The notes under the pieces: generated by a model | What the model was told of the DNA's origin: nothing | The model's database searches: none | Seen by the model: only the letters and a program-made list of their open reading frames with translations | Origin: Methanobacteriota archaeon | GTDB lineage: Archaea; Thermoplasmatota; Poseidoniia; Poseidoniales; Poseidoniaceae | Assembly: GCA_018659375.1 (NCBI GenBank) | Contig: JABJMO010000051.1 | Location: forward strand, 1-49,448 | DNA: 49,448 nucleotides | Direction: 5' to 3' | Made by a program: the position numbers and the translations under genes | Shown here: positions 8,602 through 17,840 of the stretch, in pieces | Position numbering within the stretch: position 1 is the first letter of the stretch | How the letters are laid out: every line of letters starts with the position of its first letter

Positions 8602-9960
8602 ATGGACAGTGACACAGAAGAATTGGGAGATTCTAGCCAGGATTTATTGGCAGAATATGAAAATTCTAATGTTTCATTGATCTCTCTTGCTAGGACTTTG
8701 TTATCTTCTTCCACAATGCCTCACATCATTTTAGTGATTATATTATCAGCTATACTATACATCACCTCAAGCGCAGATTCATTAACCAATATCTCCGCAA
8801 TGGCGTTTACCAGTTTATCCATCGGCTATGGAGTTAGTGCAATAACAAGCAATAGTACAATAGTCAAAAAATGGATTACCCTGGATTATGATGAAACCGA
8901 CGAACGGCCGCTCTTAATTCGTAATCTAGCCAAATTTCGAATCTGTATTTTCCCGTTATTAATGGCCTTTATTTCGCTTCTAGCCATGTTATTTTTCTTT
9001 GGTGAAAACGGAGTAATACCAATTGGCGATGGAGTTCTACCTCTGGCCATGGGTAGCCTATTTGTCGTCTGGTCAATTGTCCAAGGAACTTCATTTACCA
9101 AATGGGCCTCCTCAGCAAGCGCTAAACTAATCGACAAACAAAGACCTACTTATTTACAAATGTCTGTGTTATTTTCAATTGGTATAATCGCCTTAATGTC
9201 AAGTGTTTTTGCCACCATATTTTACAAAATTAACAACTTCAATTTGTCTCTTAGTGGAGCATTTTTAGACAGCCTGCTATTTACTAGCATCGCAGTATTA
9301 GTGTTAGTTGCAAATGTCGGATATAATTGGCAATTGAAGAAATTGGCTTCGATGAAATACCGATTACATAATTTTAGTAATAGGTGGACCATTATTTGTC
9401 ATGTTTTTATCTCATGGCACTTACTAACTCTTTGGCGACAAATTTTCCTCGACCCCACTGATATTCAAGTATTGTTTGAAGAATTAGTTTTGATGATTTT
9501 TACCGTCTTTATCGCAATTTGGTCGATGACGGCTAAAGGTTACAAAAGTAGTTTTAGGCCCATCAACGAAGAAAATGCGTTGTCATGGGGCTTAGCATTT
9601 GGATATGCTTATGCTGGTAGCGTGGCGATGCTAACTACTGTCTTTGATGACATCACAACGGTGATGCAGATTGGGCATACAGTGGTGATAATAGCCGTGC
9701 TATATATTCACAGAAAGGTGCTCACAGACATAATTGGGCAAGACAACTTAGCAGTAGAAGTAAATCGCATCGTAGAACATAGCGAACCAAAAAACACCCA
9801 CATCCAAGATGACAAATTCAATGAAACTGCAGATGAAGCAGGTGAAAAAAATTCTGACGATGATTCGTGGCAAGAGGATGACGAAGTCGATTGGGAAAAG
9901 GAGAAAACAACTCCGGTTATTGAAGATGTTGAGTGGGATACGATTATTGAAGTTGATTAG
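8602..9960 (+). CDS. Polytopic membrane protein with acidic C-terminal tail, unknown function
   Basis: 452 residues with about nine to ten predicted TM helices between residues 38 and 375, for example SSTMPHIILVIILSAILYIT and FRICIFPLLMAFISLLAMLFFF. A hydrophilic tail of about 70 residues (385-452) is rich in Asp, Glu and Trp and contains repeated WxxD/E-type motifs (SWQEDDEVDW, VEWDTIIEVD). The N-terminus is also acidic, so both ends are probably cytoplasmic. No transporter or enzyme signature was recognised. It runs convergently into the FtsZ-family gene, overlapping its 3' end by 17 bases. Confidence 0.8.
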   Translation: MDSDTEELGDSSQDLLAEYENSNVSLISLARTLLSSSTMPHIILVIILSAILYITSSADSLTNISAMAFTSLSIGYGVSAITSNSTIVKKWITLDYDETDERPLLIRNLAKFRICIFPLLMAFISLLAMLFFFGENGVIPIGDGVLPLAMGSLFVVWSIVQGTSFTKWASSASAKLIDKQRPTYLQMSVLFSIGIIALMSSVFATIFYKINNFNLSLSGAFLDSLLFTSIAVLVLVANVGYNWQLKKLASMKYRLHNFSNRWTIICHVFISWHLLTLWRQIFLDPTDIQVLFEELVLMIFTVFIAIWSMTAKGYKSSFRPINEENALSWGLAFGYAYAGSVAMLTTVFDDITTVMQIGHTVVIIAVLYIHRKVLTDIIGQDNLAVEVNRIVEHSEPKNTHIQDDKFNETADEAGEKNSDDDSWQEDDEVDWEKEKTTPVIEDVEWDTIIEVD

Positions 9961-10870
9961 AGTCCTTTATCCCTGAAAGTAATGTCACAACTCTGATAGT
10001 ATTTACCAAATCTTCGCTAACTCTTGCTCCTAAAATTACTTGGGCGTCAGAATCGAGTGCTTCAGTGAATAACCTTGCTACTGAATCAACCTGGCTTAAC
10101 GTCATACCCAACCCACCTTCTATTTGAATCAAGCAACCTGTAGCACCACTTACGTCCAAGGCTGCCAATGGCGCCATCATTGCTGAGTGTAGAATTTTTT
10201 CGGGCTCTTCTGGCTCCCCCATACCCACTAGTAAAGTAGCGTTGCCTTCCTGTTCCACTATCGCTCTGAGGTCCATCAAATCCAAATTAATCAAACCCAT
10301 TCTGAGTAAGGTCCTTACCAAACCATCAACCAAATCTTCAACCCACTCAGCGCCCATTTGCCAAGAACGCCCTTTTTCCCTAGCTTGTCTTGCAAGTCGT
10401 TCTAAGGATAGTCTTACAGTTACATGGGCAAATTTATCTAGACGGTCAAATCCATCCTCAGCAATTCTCAACCTTGTAGATTGGACTTCAAATGGCATTG
10501 CTGAAACTGCGATCACAATAGCTCCAGATAATCGGGCCTGACGGGCAAATTCATGAGCTGCCCCCGTCCCAGTCCCACCACCTAGTCCGGTTAACAAAAT
10601 CACTAATTCCACAGGTTCCATCAATTTACTGACAACTGAAGAAACACTCCTCATGCGTTGTTCAGCCAGTGGCGGTAGCGACGCACAACCAAGCTTGTCG
10701 ACAACACTGCCTAAGCGTAGAACATGACCACGTTCAATATCGGAGAAACTTTCATCATCTGCGTCTATTAGCAGAATATCTGCTTCGGAATCGCATCGCG
10801 ACCAAGCACCTTTGGCCCATGAGCAACCAATTCCGCCAACACCGGCGATGAGAATCTGCGATGATTCCAT
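9944..10870 (-). CDS. Divergent FtsZ/tubulin-superfamily GTPase
   Basis: Tubulin-superfamily GTPase, likely in cell division or cytoskeletal positioning. It has the N-terminal GVGGIG loop after the first strand, the T4 signature GGGTGTG, a T7-type NLDLMD with the N-x-D-x-x-D catalytic pattern, and a C-terminal domain ending in DAQVILGARVSEDL and TIRVVTLLSG, as in FtsZ. At 308 residues it is short and lacks the long linker and conserved C-terminal peptide. The usual NTD/NTDAQ region is replaced by IDADDES. I chose the ATG at 10870 because a GGGGAG ribosome-binding site lies 5 bases upstream and the first strand starts at once; a TTG at 10918 would add 16 residues. It probably forms an operon with the upstream TPR gene. 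It could be a non-canonical paralogue rather than the main division FtsZ. Confidence 0.85.
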   Translation of the reverse strand: MESSQILIAGVGGIGCSWAKGAWSRCDSEADILLIDADDESFSDIERGHVLRLGSVVDKLGCASLPPLAEQRMRSVSSVVSKLMEPVELVILLTGLGGGTGTGAAHEFARQARLSGAIVIAVSAMPFEVQSTRLRIAEDGFDRLDKFAHVTVRLSLERLARQAREKGRSWQMGAEWVEDLVDGLVRTLLRMGLINLDLMDLRAIVEQEGNATLLVGMGEPEEPEKILHSAMMAPLAALDVSGATGCLIQIEGGLGMTLSQVDSVARLFTEALDSDAQVILGARVSEDLVNTIRVVTLLSGIKDSNQLQ

Positions 10871-10910
10871 TAAACTCCCCTGAACTTGAACATCAATGAA
10901 CTTTAGCCCA

Positions 10911-11207
10911 TCAATCAATATAGCGAAGATACCTTCTTCTCGAATCTCTAGCCCAAGCGTTATCCGGTTCCAATGCTAAAACTCGGTCATAATATTTTAC
11001 GGCGGTTTCAAACTCCGACAAATAGCGACCGTAGAGGTGACCTAGGTTAGATAAAACTGGAATACAGTCATCGTCTAATTCAAGCATCTTGAGCAATAAT
11101 TCTTCAGCTTTTCCAAGACTGTTTTTTAGAATAAGTTCTTCTGCCTCTCCTAAATCTGCTAATTGACTCTCGGATAAATCGTAGGTGTTCTCAAACGGAG
11201 TTGACAT
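10911..11207 (-). CDS. Small TPR-repeat protein
   Basis: 98 residues with tetratricopeptide repeats. A helix pair around LSNLGHLYGRYLSEFETAVK is followed by YYDRVLALEPDNAWARD, a classic TPR C-terminal consensus. An N-terminal half-repeat (AEELLLKMLELDDDCIPVL) precedes it. It is a likely protein-protein adaptor. Upstream of the FtsZ-family gene on the same strand, it could bind that GTPase or a division partner (inference). I chose the ATG at 11207. An AT-rich TATA-like stretch about 28 bases upstream (11231-11240) fits a leaderless transcript. A TTG at 11225 would add six residues. Confidence 0.8.
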   Translation of the reverse strand: MSTPFENTYDLSESQLADLGEAEELILKNSLGKAEELLLKMLELDDDCIPVLSNLGHLYGRYLSEFETAVKYYDRVLALEPDNAWARDSRRRYLRYID

Positions 11208-11281
11208 AAGAATCAATATTCCCAAAAACTCCTAATTATTGAACTATCCCCTTTGATAATGATTTTAAGGCTGTTTTCATA

Positions 11282-11291: not shown

Positions 11292-11386
11292 CCGCACAAA
11301 AACGAGGTACTGCGAATAAATTAACCCGCCCAATTTGACAATGTTTAAAGGGTTCACATAGGTGGGGGAAATAACTGGGTGTGTTT

Positions 11387-12205
11387 ATGTTGCGCAAGCC
11401 TATCTCGAAACGCCTTGCGCTAGGCATATCCTTGTTGATTATTCTTATCACACCCAGCCTTGCTTCATCCTATCACGGAGGCATTGGTGGTGAACAATCA
11501 AACGCCGGTGAGACCATTGATGATGTAGCCAAAGAAGGCTGTCTGTGCCACAATCCTGTGGCAGACAACACTGTACAAATTATTCTCGATGATGTGCCAT
11601 ATGCGTGGGCTGGTGGAGAATCTTACGAATTAAAACTACAAATTATCGGGGGGCCTACTGCAGCAAGCCCTTGGACTGCTGGTTTTTCAATGCGTGTCTC
11701 TAGCGGGATACTTTCTGGTGACAACTTGCAAAATTGGGAGGAAGACCCAACGACCCTGACTCAAACCGAAGCCTCGGCAGGCAACTCTGACAGAATGTGG
11801 ATATTCACTTGGGCTGCACCAGATTCAGGAAACGGAGTTGTTGACTTCTGGATAACTGGAAATTCAGTTAACGGAGACCAAGGACCTGGACCTGAAGATA
11901 AATGGAACCAACTTATCTTTGCCCTGCAAGAAGGTGATGAAGACACCTCTGCAATGGGCACAAGGACACTATTTGCCGGCGATGGCAATGTCAGCCCACC
12001 TGTACCAGAAGAAACCGGAGTAGACCTACATCATATGGGCGCAGAGTTTAGGGCACACGTGTTAGGGTTGCTTGGGTTTGGCGCTGTTATTGCAGTTATA
12101 TTATTTGCAGGATTAATGCTCAGGTATAGTTTCTCATCATCTTACAAAGGTAGAAGTAACCAGCTTAGGTTGCGATACAAGATAAGGCGAAGAGGTGATC
12201 AATGA
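11387..12205 (+). CDS. Secreted, C-terminally anchored protein with CxCH motif (respiratory operon)
   Basis: 272 residues from the ATG at 11387; a GTG at 11381 would add two. A signal peptide (about 1-28, ISLLIILITPSLASS) precedes a domain with GCLCHN at 51-56, then a beta-rich region with AGGESYEL and GFSMRVSSG. This resembles the Reeler/choice-of-anchor V type domain, which often carries Cys-x-x-Cys-His near its start. A TM helix near 225-246 and a very basic tail (RLRYKIRRRGDQ) anchor it with the main domain outside. The motif is C-L-C-H, one residue short of a c-type haem CxxCH, so haem attachment is uncertain. As first gene of the operon it may be an electron-transfer or assembly partner of the Rieske/cytochrome b complex. 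Its stop overlaps the next start by 4 bases. Confidence 0.7.
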   Translation: MLRKPISKRLALGISLLIILITPSLASSYHGGIGGEQSNAGETIDDVAKEGCLCHNPVADNTVQIILDDVPYAWAGGESYELKLQIIGGPTAASPWTAGFSMRVSSGILSGDNLQNWEEDPTTLTQTEASAGNSDRMWIFTWAAPDSGNGVVDFWITGNSVNGDQGPGPEDKWNQLIFALQEGDEDTSAMGTRTLFAGDGNVSPPVPEETGVDLHHMGAEFRAHVLGLLGFGAVIAVILFAGLMLRYSFSSSYKGRSNQLRLRYKIRRRGDQ

Positions 12206-12648
12206 TGGATGATACAATCACAAAACTACTACGAGGAGTGGCCAAGGGTGATATCACCGTAGAAGACGCAAGAAAATCCTTGGAAGATGCCAGTCTTACA
12301 GAAGAAGAAATGGAGATGGCAATCGACAAAGGTGTATTTACCGAAGCTGATATGGGTTCGATTGTAAGCGCAAAATTAGCACCATCTGGGGCATCATACC
12401 TTACCATGTTCTTTTTCATTTGGGGGATTTTTTGGTCATGCTATTGGGTGTTTTCATTAATCTATGGACTAGCCAAAGATTGGGATCAAAGACAATTGGC
12501 ATTCCATCTAGCAATGTCGTTAACTACCCTCATTATGATGGGTTTGGTATATCTAAGATTCATCTTACCAGATACTATCATTGTAAAACATGCAATAAAC
12601 AAATTCATCCCCGAGCATCAAAAGGATTGGAAAGAATACAAGGTGTGA
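12202..12648 (+). CDS. Small two-TM membrane protein in Rieske/cytochrome b operon
   Basis: 148 residues with no recognised family. An N-terminal soluble helical region (1-60, acidic, with repeated short helices such as ITVEDARKSLEDASL) precedes TM helices at about 66-90 and 99-122. A short charged C-terminus ends KDWKEYKV. A GAGGTGATC ribosome-binding site lies just before the ATG, which overlaps the preceding stop in ATGA. Placement between the CxCH protein and the Rieske gene suggests an accessory subunit of the complex (inference). Confidence 0.7.
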   Translation: MMDDTITKLLRGVAKGDITVEDARKSLEDASLTEEEMEMAIDKGVFTEADMGSIVSAKLAPSGASYLTMFFFIWGIFWSCYWVFSLIYGLAKDWDQRQLAFHLAMSLTTLIMMGLVYLRFILPDTIIVKHAINKFIPEHQKDWKEYKV

Positions 12649-12653
12649 TTTAA

Positions 12654-13505
12654 TTGGCAAGAGAATATGATTTGAAACCTGCACCTTCTTTGGGCGGAGA
12701 TGAAGCCGCATATGGTGCTGGGAAAGTCATCAATCGCCGACAATTTTTGAAGTACGGATTCAACACTGCGACTGGAGTATTAGCAGCATCATTGGGTGTT
12801 CTGGGATTCACTGCACTCATTATGCCGCCCGACACCGAGGGGACTGGCGGAGAAGGCACCATACAATTCTGGGCCAAGGGTCGTGAAGATGAGGCTTGGT
12901 ATGGGGCGAAACACGAAGTCAACATGACTCGTCAAGATTTCGTTGACGAAGCCGCAAAATCGAGTACTGGAACAGCCGGAGCAGCTGGAATTTGGAATGG
13001 AGTCCCGGTCATTGTAGTGTATGTCGATCACGAGAAAAACAAAGACACTCCAGTATCTCTTGGTAAAGCAAGATTCCAAATGATGGAAGGATACGACGAA
13101 ACTGGTAAGCGAATTGGCCATTTTGAGGACATGTCAGACGTTGACCCGCGGATTTTCCCATCTGACAATATAGTAATTATTTATGGGCGATGCACTCATC
13201 TTTGTTGCATACCAGGTTGGCAATTAGTTTCTAACTCATTTACTGATGATTCATGGACTCCAGGCGGCGGTGATGATGGCGGAACTAAACTATTCTGTAT
13301 CTGTCACTCTTCAAGATTTGACCCTACTGCCCTAGAGATGAACTCTAACAGAAATCGTTCTAGTGGTGCAACATTCAGTTATGCAGGAATAAAGGCTTCA
13401 GGGGGCCCTGCTCCTGTAGGACTTCCTATTATTCCTGTATTAATGGACGGTGATGTGATAACCGGCATCACCGATTATGTAGATTGGTTAACATATTGTG
13501 ATTGA
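12654..13505 (+). CDS. Rieske [2Fe-2S] iron-sulfur protein
   Basis: Rieske subunit of a cytochrome bc-type quinol oxidising complex, located outside the membrane. Box I reads CTHLCC (180-185) and box II CICHSS (215-220). C180, H182, C215 and H218 are the expected cluster ligands, and C185 with C217 the expected disulfide. Box I has Cys where Gly is usual (CTHLGC). The N-terminus has NRRQFLKYGF (28-36) before a hydrophobic stretch (40-57), a Tat-like uncleaved anchor consistent with folded export of the cofactor. At 283 residues it is longer than bacterial Rieske proteins, with an insertion of about 60 residues between the anchor and the cluster fold. The start is TTG at 12654, preceded by AGGTGTGAT. 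Cytochrome b follows 9 bases later. Confidence 0.93.
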   Translation: MAREYDLKPAPSLGGDEAAYGAGKVINRRQFLKYGFNTATGVLAASLGVLGFTALIMPPDTEGTGGEGTIQFWAKGREDEAWYGAKHEVNMTRQDFVDEAAKSSTGTAGAAGIWNGVPVIVVYVDHEKNKDTPVSLGKARFQMMEGYDETGKRIGHFEDMSDVDPRIFPSDNIVIIYGRCTHLCCIPGWQLVSNSFTDDSWTPGGGDDGGTKLFCICHSSRFDPTALEMNSNRNRSSGATFSYAGIKASGGPAPVGLPIIPVLMDGDVITGITDYVDWLTYCD

Positions 13506-13514
13506 GGTGATTAA

Positions 13515-14381
13515 ATGACTACAATGTTCTGGATTCTTTGGTTCTTTATTGCCTTCATTATTGTTCTTGTTGCGTTTACCCTGCGCAAAGAGAATGAAGA
13601 AATGCCTCGCAGAGAGATTCTGCGAGCCGTTGAATCTTCCGGAAAGATGGGCTTTGCTGAGCGATCATTCCTTTGGGTATTTTCATGGCTAGACACACGA
13701 TTTAGAATACAAGATTATTGGAATATGTCAAAAGGTGCATACTACAACATGCACAGACAGATGCCACTGACTCACGCTGAAAAGTATAAACTTCGCATAA
13801 TCTGGTATTGGTATCCATTATACTGCCTAGGAGGGATATCATTCCTCTCGTTCATTATTCTAGTCTTGACTGGTACTGTGCTGGGTATCTACTATGTTCC
13901 TGGCGGAAATGGAATTCCATCTCCAGCTTATTTGAGCATGCAATATATCATGACTGAATTACCGTTTGGTTATATCATAAGGGCAGTCCACCATTGGGGA
14001 ACTCACTTCATGGTGGCCAGCGTATTCTTGCACATGTGCCGTGTATACTTCACAGGAGCTTATCGAAATCCAAGAGAACTTAACTGGCTAATTGGTGTCG
14101 CACTAATGGCTCTAACAATTGTCTTTGGATATTCAGGCTACTTACTACCATGGGACTCACTAGCGTATGGTGCTGCGGTAATTGGTATAAACCTAGCAAA
14201 CTCAAGCCCATTAGTCGGCAAGTATGTCGCAACGTTACTATTTGGTGGCTCGTCATTAACCGAAAGAACAGTAACTAGGATGTACTTTATTCACGTATTC
14301 ATACTACCAGTTATAGTCACAGGGCTAATTATAGTCCATTTGTTTATTGTTTGGGTGCAAGGAATTGCGGAGCCACATTGA
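13515..14381 (+). CDS. Cytochrome b/b6, N-terminal haem-binding half
   Basis: Membrane subunit carrying the two b haems of a quinol:acceptor complex, 288 residues. The haem-ligand histidines are seen as H159 and H173 in one helix (VHHWGTHFMVASVFLH) and H260 and H275 in another (FIHVFILPVIVTGLIIVH). The 15-residue spacing of the second pair is like cytochrome b6. Other hallmarks are TGAYRNPRELNW and GYSGYLLPWD. An additional N-terminal TM helix (3-22) and a basic linker come before the usual amphipathic start. The C-terminal helices are encoded by the next gene, 16 bases downstream, so cytochrome b is split as in b6/subunit IV systems. Confidence 0.95.
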   Translation: MTTMFWILWFFIAFIIVLVAFTLRKENEEMPRREILRAVESSGKMGFAERSFLWVFSWLDTRFRIQDYWNMSKGAYYNMHRQMPLTHAEKYKLRIIWYWYPLYCLGGISFLSFIILVLTGTVLGIYYVPGGNGIPSPAYLSMQYIMTELPFGYIIRAVHHWGTHFMVASVFLHMCRVYFTGAYRNPRELNWLIGVALMALTIVFGYSGYLLPWDSLAYGAAVIGINLANSSPLVGKYVATLLFGGSSLTERTVTRMYFIHVFILPVIVTGLIIVHLFIVWVQGIAEPH

Positions 14382-14397: not shown

Positions 14398-17211
14398 ATG
14401 GGACTAGTAGAGAATCTGGGTAGAGTAGCATCTTCATATATGGATGAAAAAGAAAAGCTTCAATCAACTGAAGGTAAGCGCGAAAGAACACGCCTAGGCC
14501 ATGGTTTTTGGCCGCATGAAGTATTGAGAGATATCTTGATTTTTGCATTCATGGGTGCTGTCCTGTTGTATTATGCATGGATTATCCCTCCACCACTGCA
14601 CGGTGCAGCGGACCCTTACGCACAAGCTGGATTCGTATTCCCTGACTGGTATGTGTTGTTTTCTTACGGTTATCTTAGATGGGGTGAATATCTACCCCAA
14701 TTTACCGTCCCTACTGGTTTCATCGGAGAGATTGTCGGTCAACCTGTATTCCCTTGGAATGCAGCATGGTGGGGAGCAGCCCTAACTGGAATCCCAATAG
14801 GTATACTTATCCTACCACCGTTCCTTGGTGGCAGAGAAAAGCGGCCAGTCGAAGATCCATGGTTTGCTGCTGCAGGTGCTGTTTACTTAGCACACATTTG
14901 GTTCATATCGGTGTTCTCAATCAATATTTTCTTAGAACTTTACCACAAGAATCGGTCAGACTATTGTAAATTAGACAGTCATGGCGATCTACTTTGTGGG
15001 GTGCGGGAGCCTTGGATGGCCGAAGCGTTCAACGCCATACCTTGGGCGATGACTGGTATTCTGTTATGGATATGTATCTACTTTGGCGCCAGAATGGTGT
15101 TATCAAAAGCATGGGGCTCAGCGTTTACGCCGAACCATGCCAAGCAAATTCTAGTTGGGGCGTTAATTTTGTCCACTGCTGCAACTGTTGCAACATGGGA
15201 TACTTACGACAAAGGCTTCTGGGGCGCTAAAGGCCTGGGAACCATATCAGACTATGGTGAGTTAGAAGAAATGCGAACTCAGCCTGTCGATGTCCACGTT
15301 CACGACACCAACGAATTTACCGATAATTTTGGCTGGTCAGAGGATGCCACCGTACCAACTACGGCGTGGTTAGATTGGGTAATTTATCAACCAGGTCAAG
15401 AAGTAATTATCGATTTCTTTGATTCCAACGGACATCAAATACCAGCAGATGGTATTAATTCTGCATTTGAATCTGCAACCTTGACTACCGAAGACTCATA
15501 TTCAGTTAGTGATACATTTACAGTTACTGAAGACCCTGTATTATTCCCAGAAGGACATCATGAATCTGTTAGTAAGATAACTACTGATATATCATGTGAA
15601 CATCGAGCTGAAGAAAGAAAGATCAATGACGTCAAGACCGATTCTATGATTAGCAGCACCTTGTCTGTCACCAACGCAGATGGCAATGTTGTCGCTGACA
15701 TAAATGACTGTGCAGGAACAAGTGTCGACTTACCAGTTGGAACTTACCAGTATCAATTTGATGTTACAATCACCGGGCCTTTGGCTCTTAATGATACAAT
15801 GATGAAAGAAATCAAACTAGAAATTGCTTCATTCCAGCCGTTATTAGTTTGGAATAGCGCAGCACCAGCTGCACTAGAGGGTAAGACTGTCAATCTTAGC
15901 AGCACCACAGACATGGCGCTTGGTGGCTCAAACTACGGACAAATCGATAACCCTGGATATCACATGAACCCAAAGAGCCTAGATGCGAAACTAATCTATG
16001 CAATGTTCATCCCTTGTCTTACTTTTGGCGCAATGGTATTCATCCTGCTGCGCTCAATGGCTAGAGGCTATGAATTCGAGATGAACAAGTGTTACGGATG
16101 TGACCTTTGTGATGATGCTTGTCCTGTTAGATTATTCAACGGTGGTGACAAACTCAACATCATTTACAACTCATGGAACAATGAAGACGATGGAGTCCCA
16201 ATGTATTCATGTCTTACCTGTACAGCCTGTACCAATGCATGTCCTCAACTAGTTGACTATGACTCATATGTCGACATTCGCAGAGGACTAATCGTTGGTG
16301 GTCCACAGGCTGAAATCCCTCACACAGTATTACAAGCAGTTCTTGCTGCTGAGGCTGAAGAAGATGCAGATCAGGATTTCATTACTGTTGAGGACTACCC
16401 GATCGATTCTAATATCGGTTATTATCCAGGTTGCGTAGACTACCTAGACCAAGAAATGGTTTTCTCTCACGTCAATGAAGGTGAAATGAACCTTGGAGCC
16501 GCAACTACATCGGCATATACTCTGTTTGATGAACTTGGAGTAGACGTCTCATACTTAGGCAGGGACTTCCTAAAATGCTGTGGTCACGATCAAAAATGGC
16601 AAGGTCTTACTGAAGTATTTGACAAGTTGAAAGCTTACAACCAAAAGAAAATCCATCAGTCTGGAATTGACACACTAGTATCATCCTGTGCTGAGTGTTT
16701 CAGAACCTTTGCTAGAGATTACGAACTTGAAGATGTCAAGGTTATGCACACAACAGAATTTTTACTTGAACAAGGATTTGATATGGACTTGAAGGTTGCT
16801 GAAGAAACCACAGTTACCTATCACGACCCATGCAGACTTGGCAGGCAAATGGGAGTCTATGAAGAACCTAGGGAATTAATCAATGCTGTCGAAGGCGTAA
16901 ATCTGGTCGAGATGGAACACAGCGGCGAAGATGCAATGTGCTGTGGCGTTTCCAGTATGATGTCTTGTAATGAAAATGCTAGAGCACTTCGTGTCTCTAG
17001 AATGGAGGAGATCAAGTCAACCGGTGCTGATACCATGCTAACATCTTGCCCAAAATGTGTAACTCACTTTGAATGTTTGAAGTTTGAAGATGATGACAAA
17101 TACTCAGACATTAAGATCCTTGACGTAGTGACCTTCCTAGCACAACAGATTAATGAGAAGAAGTCAAAGATTGCCGAAGAAGCGATTACTACTTTAGAGA
17201 CTGAAGCTTGA
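14398..17211 (+). CDS. Fusion: cytochrome b C-terminal half + exoplasmic domain + 2[4Fe-4S] + HdrD-like CCG domains
   Basis: 937 residues with four parts. (1) Residues 40-262 resemble cytochrome b subunit IV with several TM helices; PDWY at 82-85 corresponds to the quinol-site PEWY. (2) Residues about 265-525 form a beta-rich hydrophilic domain, probably outside the membrane. (3) A TM helix at about 530-553 leads to two [4Fe-4S] motifs, C565xxC568xxC571xxxC575P and C605xxC608xxC611xxxC615P. (4) Two CCG domains follow, C679...C727C728G-x35-C764xxC767 and C812-x35-C848C849G...C884xxC887. Parts 3 and 4 match HdrD/GlpC-type subunits. In methanogen HdrD a CCG domain holds the noncubane cluster that reduces the CoM-CoB heterodisulfide. 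A GGGGG ribosome-binding site precedes the ATG. Cytosolic placement of the HdrD part near the inner quinone site is inferred from topology. The substrate is unknown; GlpC or LutA-like dehydrogenase roles are alternatives. Confidence 0.92.
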   Translation: MGLVENLGRVASSYMDEKEKLQSTEGKRERTRLGHGFWPHEVLRDILIFAFMGAVLLYYAWIIPPPLHGAADPYAQAGFVFPDWYVLFSYGYLRWGEYLPQFTVPTGFIGEIVGQPVFPWNAAWWGAALTGIPIGILILPPFLGGREKRPVEDPWFAAAGAVYLAHIWFISVFSINIFLELYHKNRSDYCKLDSHGDLLCGVREPWMAEAFNAIPWAMTGILLWICIYFGARMVLSKAWGSAFTPNHAKQILVGALILSTAATVATWDTYDKGFWGAKGLGTISDYGELEEMRTQPVDVHVHDTNEFTDNFGWSEDATVPTTAWLDWVIYQPGQEVIIDFFDSNGHQIPADGINSAFESATLTTEDSYSVSDTFTVTEDPVLFPEGHHESVSKITTDISCEHRAEERKINDVKTDSMISSTLSVTNADGNVVADINDCAGTSVDLPVGTYQYQFDVTITGPLALNDTMMKEIKLEIASFQPLLVWNSAAPAALEGKTVNLSSTTDMALGGSNYGQIDNPGYHMNPKSLDAKLIYAMFIPCLTFGAMVFILLRSMARGYEFEMNKCYGCDLCDDACPVRLFNGGDKLNIIYNSWNNEDDGVPMYSCLTCTACTNACPQLVDYDSYVDIRRGLIVGGPQAEIPHTVLQAVLAAEAEEDADQDFITVEDYPIDSNIGYYPGCVDYLDQEMVFSHVNEGEMNLGAATTSAYTLFDELGVDVSYLGRDFLKCCGHDQKWQGLTEVFDKLKAYNQKKIHQSGIDTLVSSCAECFRTFARDYELEDVKVMHTTEFLLEQGFDMDLKVAEETTVTYHDPCRLGRQMGVYEEPRELINAVEGVNLVEMEHSGEDAMCCGVSSMMSCNENARALRVSRMEEIKSTGADTMLTSCPKCVTHFECLKFEDDDKYSDIKILDVVTFLAQQINEKKSKIAEEAITTLETEA

Positions 17212-17212
17212 G

Positions 17213-17503
17213 TCAATCCTCAGTCGTCTCATCGTCATCACTCATACCGAGTATTTCATAATTTGACGGGAATAAAGCAACACCAACTCCTGCAATTAGG
17301 GTGACTAGTCCCCACATGAACATCTGTTGAACAAATAGCATCTCCAAAGCTAGTACACACAAGATTAAACCACCAATATTTGAAGTCCAAACTAGGGTCT
17401 TGAAAGTTGATAATGGTACTCCTGTAGTCCCTGGTTTACGGTAAGGGCCAAATTCGCCACCAAATCGTTGAGCGTCATTTTTAGCTTCGTCTTTTCCACT
17501 CAT
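17213..17503 (-). CDS. Small membrane protein with two TM helices
   Basis: 96 residues from the ATG at 17503, which has AGGTGAT 3 bases upstream. A start at 17518 would overlap the ferredoxin gene and lacks such a site. A charged N-terminus (GKDEAKNDAQRFGGEFGPYRKPG) leads into two hydrophobic segments (about 41-60 and 63-84) and an acidic tail. No family recognised. It is the last gene of the asnB-gshA-ferredoxin operon, ends 2 bases from the stop of the cytochrome b/HdrD fusion gene, and might anchor the ferredoxin (inference). Confidence 0.7.
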   Translation of the reverse strand: MSGKDEAKNDAQRFGGEFGPYRKPGTTGVPLSTFKTLVWTSNIGGLILCVLALEMLFVQQMFMWGLVTLIAGVGVALFPSNYEILGMSDDDETTED

Positions 17504-17507
17504 AGCA

Positions 17508-17840
17508 TCACCTATCAATCATCGATATTGCATCTGTTGGACACGCTAGAACGCAAAGTCTGCAACCAGTACAAGCATCGCGAATAATCTTCGCTTTACG
17601 ATTTGATTCAACGTTCATCAATGGACTTCGCATTGGGACTTTGTAAAGTTCAATCGCGTCATCATCACATACTATGTCACATTGATCGCAACCAATGCAC
17701 AAATTTTCCTCAACGAAGGCAACTGTATTTTCGCCGCCTTTGATAGATGAATGTTGAACACTACGCTGTCGGTTAAGTGAAGTTCGAATGCGCAAAGCTT
17801 CCGCTTCTCTACGCTTTTTCAACTCATCCGCTGATGTCAT
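17508..17840 (-). CDS. 2[4Fe-4S] ferredoxin
   Basis: 110 residues. Two cluster motifs are present, C48xxC51xxC54xxxC58 followed by Asp instead of the usual Pro, and C90xxC93xxC96xxxC100P. A basic, probably helical N-terminal extension of about 40 residues and a 30-residue spacer between the motifs distinguish it from minimal clostridial ferredoxins. It is probably a cytoplasmic low-potential electron carrier. It overlaps the upstream membrane protein gene by 4 bases. Its operon converges on the cytochrome b/HdrD fusion gene, so electron exchange with that complex is plausible but unproven. Confidence 0.9.
   Translation of the reverse strand: MTSADELKKRREAEALRIRTSLNRQRSVQHSSIKGGENTVAFVEENLCIGCDQCDIVCDDDAIELYKVPMRSPLMNVESNRKAKIIRDACTGCRLCVLACPTDAISMIDR

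Follow-up and report, generated by a model that had tools for sequence, protein, structure and literature searches.

The window, that is the whole stretch of 49,448 nucleotides that was analysed, carries a cluster of Rieske and cytochrome b genes on the plus strand. The first gene of the cluster (11381..12205, +) encodes an exported, membrane-anchored choice-of-anchor V protein of 274 aa (NF041895, 1.9e-21, above cut-off) with two hydrophobic spans, and the second (12202..12648, +) a small membrane protein of 148 aa, in which the span scan also finds two hydrophobic spans and which is conserved in the cluster by synteny (76/76). They are followed by the Rieske protein (12654..13505, +), which has the cluster motifs CTHLCC and CICH and a Tat-type signal, RRQFL, at residue 28; its profile scores are weak (PF00355, 13.5 bits against a cut-off of 20.3, 0.07; TIGR01416, 2.1e-10, below cut-off). 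Directly after it comes the N-terminal half of cytochrome b (13515..14381, +; PF00033, 9.4e-43), in which His159/173 and His260/275 were chosen by eye as pairs that we take to be haem ligands at a b6-type spacing. The cytochrome b gene ends 16 bp before the gene under study. That Rieske and cytochrome b genes lie immediately upstream had been pointed out in a first-pass annotation of this DNA, and it holds beyond the window as well, since the cytochrome b, Rieske, 148-aa and 274-aa genes precede the fusion gene described below on the same strand in all 76 loci with room for them. A motif scan of the 274-aa partner protein found no c-type CxxCH spacing, only a CxCH, and a pattern scan showed this GCxCH to recur in relatives. 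Upstream of the cluster and divergent from it lie FtsZ-like and TPR genes (9944-11225), each matched in 65/80 stretches, some of these stretches being too short.

The gene that follows cytochrome b (14398-17211, +) is a single ORF of 937 codons, running from ATG to TGA with no internal stops, in which a subunit IV, a beta-rich domain predicted outside, an HdrC-type [4Fe-4S] dicluster and an HdrB-type CCG pair succeed one another. Residues 1-290 (14398..15267, +) make up subunit IV, the C-terminal half of cytochrome b, with five predicted membrane spans and a PDWY motif at residues 82-85. The beta-rich domain (residues 291-525; 15268..15972, +), which comprises about 235 aa and separates membrane part and Fe-S module, had not been recorded in the first-pass annotation; its placement outside comes from the model, and the Foldseek matches of the modelled domain are weak ones to GOLD domains and do not indicate a cupredoxin. 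A sixth predicted span (residues 526-556; 15973..16065, +), seen in both hydropathy and model, leads to the dicluster (residues 557-640; 16066..16317, +), whose two CxxCxxCxxxCP motifs begin at C565 and C605 and which is matched above cut-off by three Fer4 dicluster models (PF13183, PF13187 and PF13237). The CCG domain pair (residues 641-920; 16318..17157, +) has ten cluster cysteines, C679, C727, C728, C764 and C767 in CCG1 and C812, C848, C849, C884 and C887 in CCG2, and PF02754 matches it at 1.4e-23 across two stretches. No Pfam match was found for the membrane part of the window protein. Shorter homologues from two other genomes are matched above cut-off by PF00032 (Cytochrom_B_C), with 22.5 bits in G187 and 39.3 bits (cut-off 20.7) in G195, where Fer4 and CCG matches also lie above cut-off on the same chain. 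The reading frame, the motifs with their cysteine positions, Pfam and the G195 chain together confirm what had been claimed for the gene, that is one 937-codon frame of subunit IV and an HdrD-like module, with two intact [4Fe-4S] motifs and two intact CCG domains.

Conservation of the fusion and other architectures in Thermoplasmatota

Relatives were collected as a set of 92 loci, made up of the best 80 of 307 relatives, labelled Euryarchaeota, euryarchaeote, Thermoplasmatota, Poseidonia, Poseidoniales or Poseidoniaceae, and 12 loci picked from a second family, f2. By our own reading of the names, families f1 and f2 correspond to Marine Group II and f3 to Marine Group III; many of the f1 loci are labelled Poseidoniales or Poseidoniaceae. 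An uninterrupted fusion ORF of 924-966 aa was present in 86/92 loci. In one further locus (L091) an internal stop left 521 aa, and five gave no ORF, four of them ending at contig ends (L074, L086, L096 and L104) and one having been overlooked by the ORF script (L101). At the level of genomes, the fusion stands in one frame of at least 900 aa in 50/59, including one with a TGA inside (G029), and in the remaining 9/59 the gene is cut by contigs, in pieces or missing. The two halves lie in two different frames of the same contig in G039, G102 and G160. All 18 cysteines of the dicluster and the CCG pair are invariant in 89 aligned rows (the window, 87 loci and G187). The search for the full architecture in relatives that had been proposed at first pass thus bears on the join itself, and the 86/92 loci with an uninterrupted ORF rule out an assembly error as its source. 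Subunit IV is genuinely fused with an Hdr-type module, and Ca. Poseidoniales conserve the fusion.

The same parts are distributed in another way in f3, which belongs to the same class. Here subunit IV and the dicluster share one gene and the CCG domains follow in the next (seven loci examined), and in all ten f3 genomes searched the parts were separate. A survey of the phylum covered 389 genomes drawn from more, and the fused lineages among the matches listed are therefore a lower bound. In this survey the fusion recurs without the extra domain in at least two other families, represented by G187 (789 aa; f22) and by G195 and G200 (f25; 606 aa in G195); no counterpart of the beta-rich domain was found in the f3, G187 and G195 forms. 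The G200 fusion is spread over two contigs (L189 and L209) whose overlap is identical by eye, and we infer that the halves are one gene. Subunit IV frames with no Fer or CCG matches are present in G165, G184, G192 and G205, and for four matches of the survey (G319, G227, G176 and G202) ORF picking gave no clear frame. The subunit IV of G184 (L187:5997-7733) runs on into a Laminin_G_3 domain (7.2e-14), which is another domain added to subunit IV.

Downstream of the fusion in the window, on the minus strand, lie a small membrane protein (17213..17518, −) and an RnfB-like ferredoxin with two 4-Cys motifs (17508..17840, −), which is a candidate electron partner (PF14697, 5.8e-16; rnfB, 4.2e-13, below cut-off). 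The small protein has a weak match in G165 (1.2e-4), and inspection by eye shows comparable short membrane proteins after the ferredoxin-type genes of G187 and G200. The RnfB-like gene lies at most 3 kb downstream of the fusion in 66/70 loci, on the same strand in 15 and on the opposite strand in 51; in the other four (L064, L067, L069 and L072) it is absent near the fusion and from the rest of the fetched stretch. In f3, the CCG gene is followed by a ferredoxin, which in the two loci where it was read (L154 and L157) is a four-cluster protein; its N half in L157 matches the zinc ferredoxin 1xer at 3.6e-29, and the zinc ferredoxin profile NF041165 stays below cut-off. The neighbour of the fusion is a 273-aa polyferredoxin in G187 and a 511-aa HdrA-like protein in G200, the latter with FlpD (MvhD) above cut-off (1.4e-17) and FAD and Fer4 matches below. 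Its counterpart in G195, cut by the contig end, matches HdrA2 at 2.1e-17, far below cut-off. Since the HdrA2 and FAD matches are below cut-off, HdrA-like denotes partial similarity only, and FAD binding is putative.

Cluster ligands, paralogues and topology

The Marine Group II rows, G187 and G195 have CCG and CAEC in CCG1 and a complete CCG2. In f3 CCG1 is one cysteine short in 7/7 loci, reading CAEG in L154, L156 and L160 (genus g22) and CSG in L155, L158, L159 and L157 (three of g23 and one of g24). In the assembly to which the window belongs (90.65% complete) only two PF02754 proteins were found, the fusion and a 700-aa paralogue (L161:7238-9340, C41) with CTG and CPHC, which is the ligand pattern of EtfD (PMC13083937). 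A second match of the EtfD-pattern kind is present in 52/59 genomes.

For a tree of the CCG modules 37/39 segments were used, all from fetched rows, including 10/92 Marine Group II loci and the window; L123 and L202 were left out for their degenerate motifs. In this tree, which is midpoint-rooted and carries a long-branch warning, the fused modules cluster together (20 rows, 93/90, not starred), they group with the soluble MvhD-HdrC-HdrB of G195 and G200 (22 rows, 100/99), and rows with the EtfD pattern fall apart from them. Scored against the CCG part of the window protein, L200 and L201 reach 137 and the EtfD-type rows 75-92; L205 totals 171.5, over a much longer matching stretch. L200, from G195, has FlpD, Fer4 and CCG all above cut-off on one chain, and this soluble MvhD-HdrC-HdrB is by sequence the closest paralogue among those examined. 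HdrA-like genes stand on both sides of it, and G195 has many more CCG matches. The identity of the fusion as an EtfD was ruled out by its ligands, which are CCG/CAEC and not CTG/CPHC, and by the tree. Profile matches to TfrB, LdhH and GlpC were all below cut-off, that to TfrB (NF004898) with 114.9 bits against a curated cut-off of 385.

Hydropathy gives six spans for the window protein, and the average over 88 rows gives the same number; the AlphaFold2 models have six long helices in the window protein and four in the G195 form. Subunit IV is taken to start inside, and since an even number of spans would put both ends on one side, the Fe-S module is predicted to lie on the inner side of the membrane. 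Single-sequence span scans of the homologues gave 3 (f3), 5 (G195) and 7 (G187), the mean hydropathy of f3 gives 4 or 5, according to which row serves as reference, and the distribution of positive charges does not clearly tell inner from outer loops. The inner location of the module proposed at first pass thus agrees with the spans of the window protein and of the averaged rows, with the helices of both models and with the Tat-type signal of its Rieske neighbour, but less well with the span scans of homologues and the mixed loop charges. The model of the window protein reaches pLDDT 68.7 and pTM 0.44, that of G195 68.2 and 0.55, and cluster-haem distances were dropped because these pTM values are too weak. 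For the CCG part the Foldseek matches were EtfD, LutA and HdrB, with EtfD as the best fold match, and the G195 model also matched a bcc cytochrome b chain (E 7.9e-3). The join of subunit IV with the Hdr-type module, taken with the predicted inner position of the latter, makes a bc-type complex with a third electron branch likely.

Direction of electron flow and relation to known complexes

Cytochrome b has exactly one match in 57/60 genomes, two in G046 and none in two, so the complex presumably serves as complex III. POR_N is present in 58/60 genomes. NuoF was found in only 7/60 Poseidoniales genomes and complex I therefore looks headless in most of them; it has been called canonical (PMC6336850).

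We favour, with a probability of about one half, a complex III with ferredoxin-type electron input at its inner (N) face. Ferredoxin reduced by 2-oxoacid:ferredoxin oxidoreductases would donate electrons to the CCG/dicluster module, either directly or via the RnfB-like protein, and the clusters of the module would hand them to haem bH or the N-side quinone, where they would join the electron from the Qo site. The module would then give complex III a ferredoxin:quinone reductase of its own. One may tentatively go further and speculate that the complex is confurcating, with the N-side ferredoxin electrons merging with the Qo electron. Per Qo turnover, one quinone would be reduced by one cytosolic electron and one Qo electron, and by our own derivation this would give a ferredoxin:outer-carrier oxidoreductase that moves about 2 protons per electron and on balance draws nothing from the quinone pool.

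Ferredoxin input is favoured by the RnfB-like gene within 3 kb in 66/70 loci and by the zinc-ferredoxin-like, polyferredoxin and HdrA-like neighbours in f3, G187 and G200/G195, respectively. In Sulfolobus and Thermoplasma, 2-oxoacid oxidoreductases pass electrons on to zinc ferredoxins (PMC2946596). The combination of POR_N (58/60), scarce NuoF (7/60) and a single cytochrome b (57/60) points the same way, as does the retention of the module in 7/7 f3 loci despite the loss of the CCG1 cysteine. Furthermore, the CSG of f3 recalls the CTG of EtfD, which is the best fold match and serves as an electron wire to menaquinone (PMC13083937), and ferredoxin entry is already in print for Angelarchaeales (PMC9038741). 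Against this reading, the RnfB-like gene is absent nearby in 4/70 loci and on the opposite strand in 51/66, a complex I lacking NuoF could be an alternative oxidiser of ferredoxin, and none of the ten CCG cysteines is lost in any aligned Marine Group II row, which is what Hdr catalysis would require. The mixed single-sequence scans behind the predicted inner location, and models too weak to give cluster-haem distances, also count against it.

The complete Hdr cysteine set in both CCG motifs of Marine Group II, G187 and G195, unlike the CTG/CPHC of EtfD, argues for a module that works as an output, in which low-potential electrons from Qo would reach the module by way of haems bL and bH and be spent in the cytosol on a disulfide or ferredoxin, in a bifurcating oxidation of quinol such as had been put forward at first pass. 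A closest examined paralogue that is a soluble MvhD-HdrC-HdrB flanked by HdrA-like genes is in line with this, and the anammox Rieske/cytochrome b complex with its NAD(P) oxidoreductase has been proposed to run likewise (PMC12954380). However, the CCG1 cysteine is missing in 7/7 f3 loci and FlpD was found in 0/88 Marine Group II genomes, which makes such an output unlikely. In addition, to our knowledge these archaea have no known disulfide substrate, and electron transfer from quinol to ferredoxin is strongly uphill. Disulfide reduction, the role first envisaged for the module, is not borne out in view of the soluble MvhD-Hdr paralogue, the ferredoxin neighbours and the cysteine loss in f3.

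The likeness to EtfD, whose CCG module is a wire from a flavoprotein (PMC13083937), brings up another donor, such that a flavoprotein dehydrogenase or a thiol system would feed the CCG domains as ETF feeds EtfD and the ferredoxin neighbours would be incidental. TfrB, LdhH and GlpC among the profile matches, all below cut-off, and the 4/70 loci with no RnfB-like gene nearby are consistent with this, but the same genome encodes the CTG/CPHC pattern of EtfD in another protein and the window genes used as synteny queries include no flavoprotein dehydrogenase, and we consider such a donor doubtful. A structural or regulatory appendage on an otherwise ordinary complex III, which would suit the single cytochrome b of 57/60 genomes and its presumed service as complex III, is highly improbable, as 18/18 invariant cluster cysteines in 89 rows are unexpected for a dead appendage.

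The favoured complex III with ferredoxin input shares with cytochrome b6f and bc-type complexes the Rieske motifs, the N half of cytochrome b and a separate subunit IV with PDWY, but its subunit IV bears HdrC- and HdrB-type domains and its 274-aa partner has no CxxCH. Judged from its motif, that partner (11381-12205) may be the acceptor of electrons on the outside, with its GCxCH binding haem or a metal in an unusual way. The HdrC-type dicluster and HdrB-type double CCG recall HdrABC-MvhD, as does the HdrA-like protein with FlpD after the G200 fusion; in contrast to HdrABC-MvhD, the module is joined to subunit IV, and no FlpD was found in the 88 Marine Group II genomes. HdrDE differs in that the partner of its module is an HdrE-type haem b anchor; here it is a set of subunit IV-type spans. 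As in the CCG modules of HdrB and HdrD there are two motifs with five Cys each (89 rows), f3 being one short (7/7). Mycobacterial EtfD (9ojn) also combines a membrane part, two [4Fe-4S] clusters and two CCG domains in one chain, but it has its own haem b and CTG/CPHC, whereas the fusion has subunit IV and CCG/CAEC.

In Angelarchaeales-1, complex III was reported in 2022 to have hdrD-like and rnfB-like genes in its proximity, and ferredoxin entry was suggested (PMC9038741). That locus resembles the present one, with the genes described there as proximal and not as fused, and its hdrD-like gene may be the same fusion, unrecognised. The anammox Rieske/cytochrome b complex (PMC12954380) is likewise of bc type and has an additional redox module, probably at its cytoplasmic face; unlike in the fusion, this module is an NAD(P) oxidoreductase and not Hdr-type, and is proposed to produce NAD(P)H. 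Cytochrome b, Rieske, RnfB and a group-specific complex III have been noted in PMC6336850, the title of which calls the group globally abundant, and Hdr subunit fusions have been reported in archaea in PMC11237513, with no mention of a subunit IV fusion in the accessible part of that report. Among the matches listed in a literature search, as far as their text was accessible, no description of a subunit IV-Hdr fusion was found. The initial statement that the fusion was not known agrees with this as regards the fusion itself, but nearby hdrD-like and rnfB-like genes and ferredoxin entry had been published for Angelarchaeales (PMC9038741), so that the idea of ferredoxin entry is partly in print.

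The reoxidation of reduced ferredoxin in aerobic and thermoacidophilic archaea was still to be established according to a 2010 review (PMC2946596), and a 2026 paper considers that b6f may act as a ferredoxin-plastoquinone reductase (PMC13287000). Both questions could be tested directly on a complex III whose subunit IV carries a covalent Fe-S entry. In G195 and G200, with an HdrA-like/MvhD protein after the fusion, quinone-based and flavin-based bifurcation could be combined in one enzyme. FlpD was found in 0/88 f1 and f2 (Marine Group II) genomes and in 1/10 f3 genomes, and the sole match among these 98 genomes lies in a 1158-aa frame (G059:C12:9716-10081).
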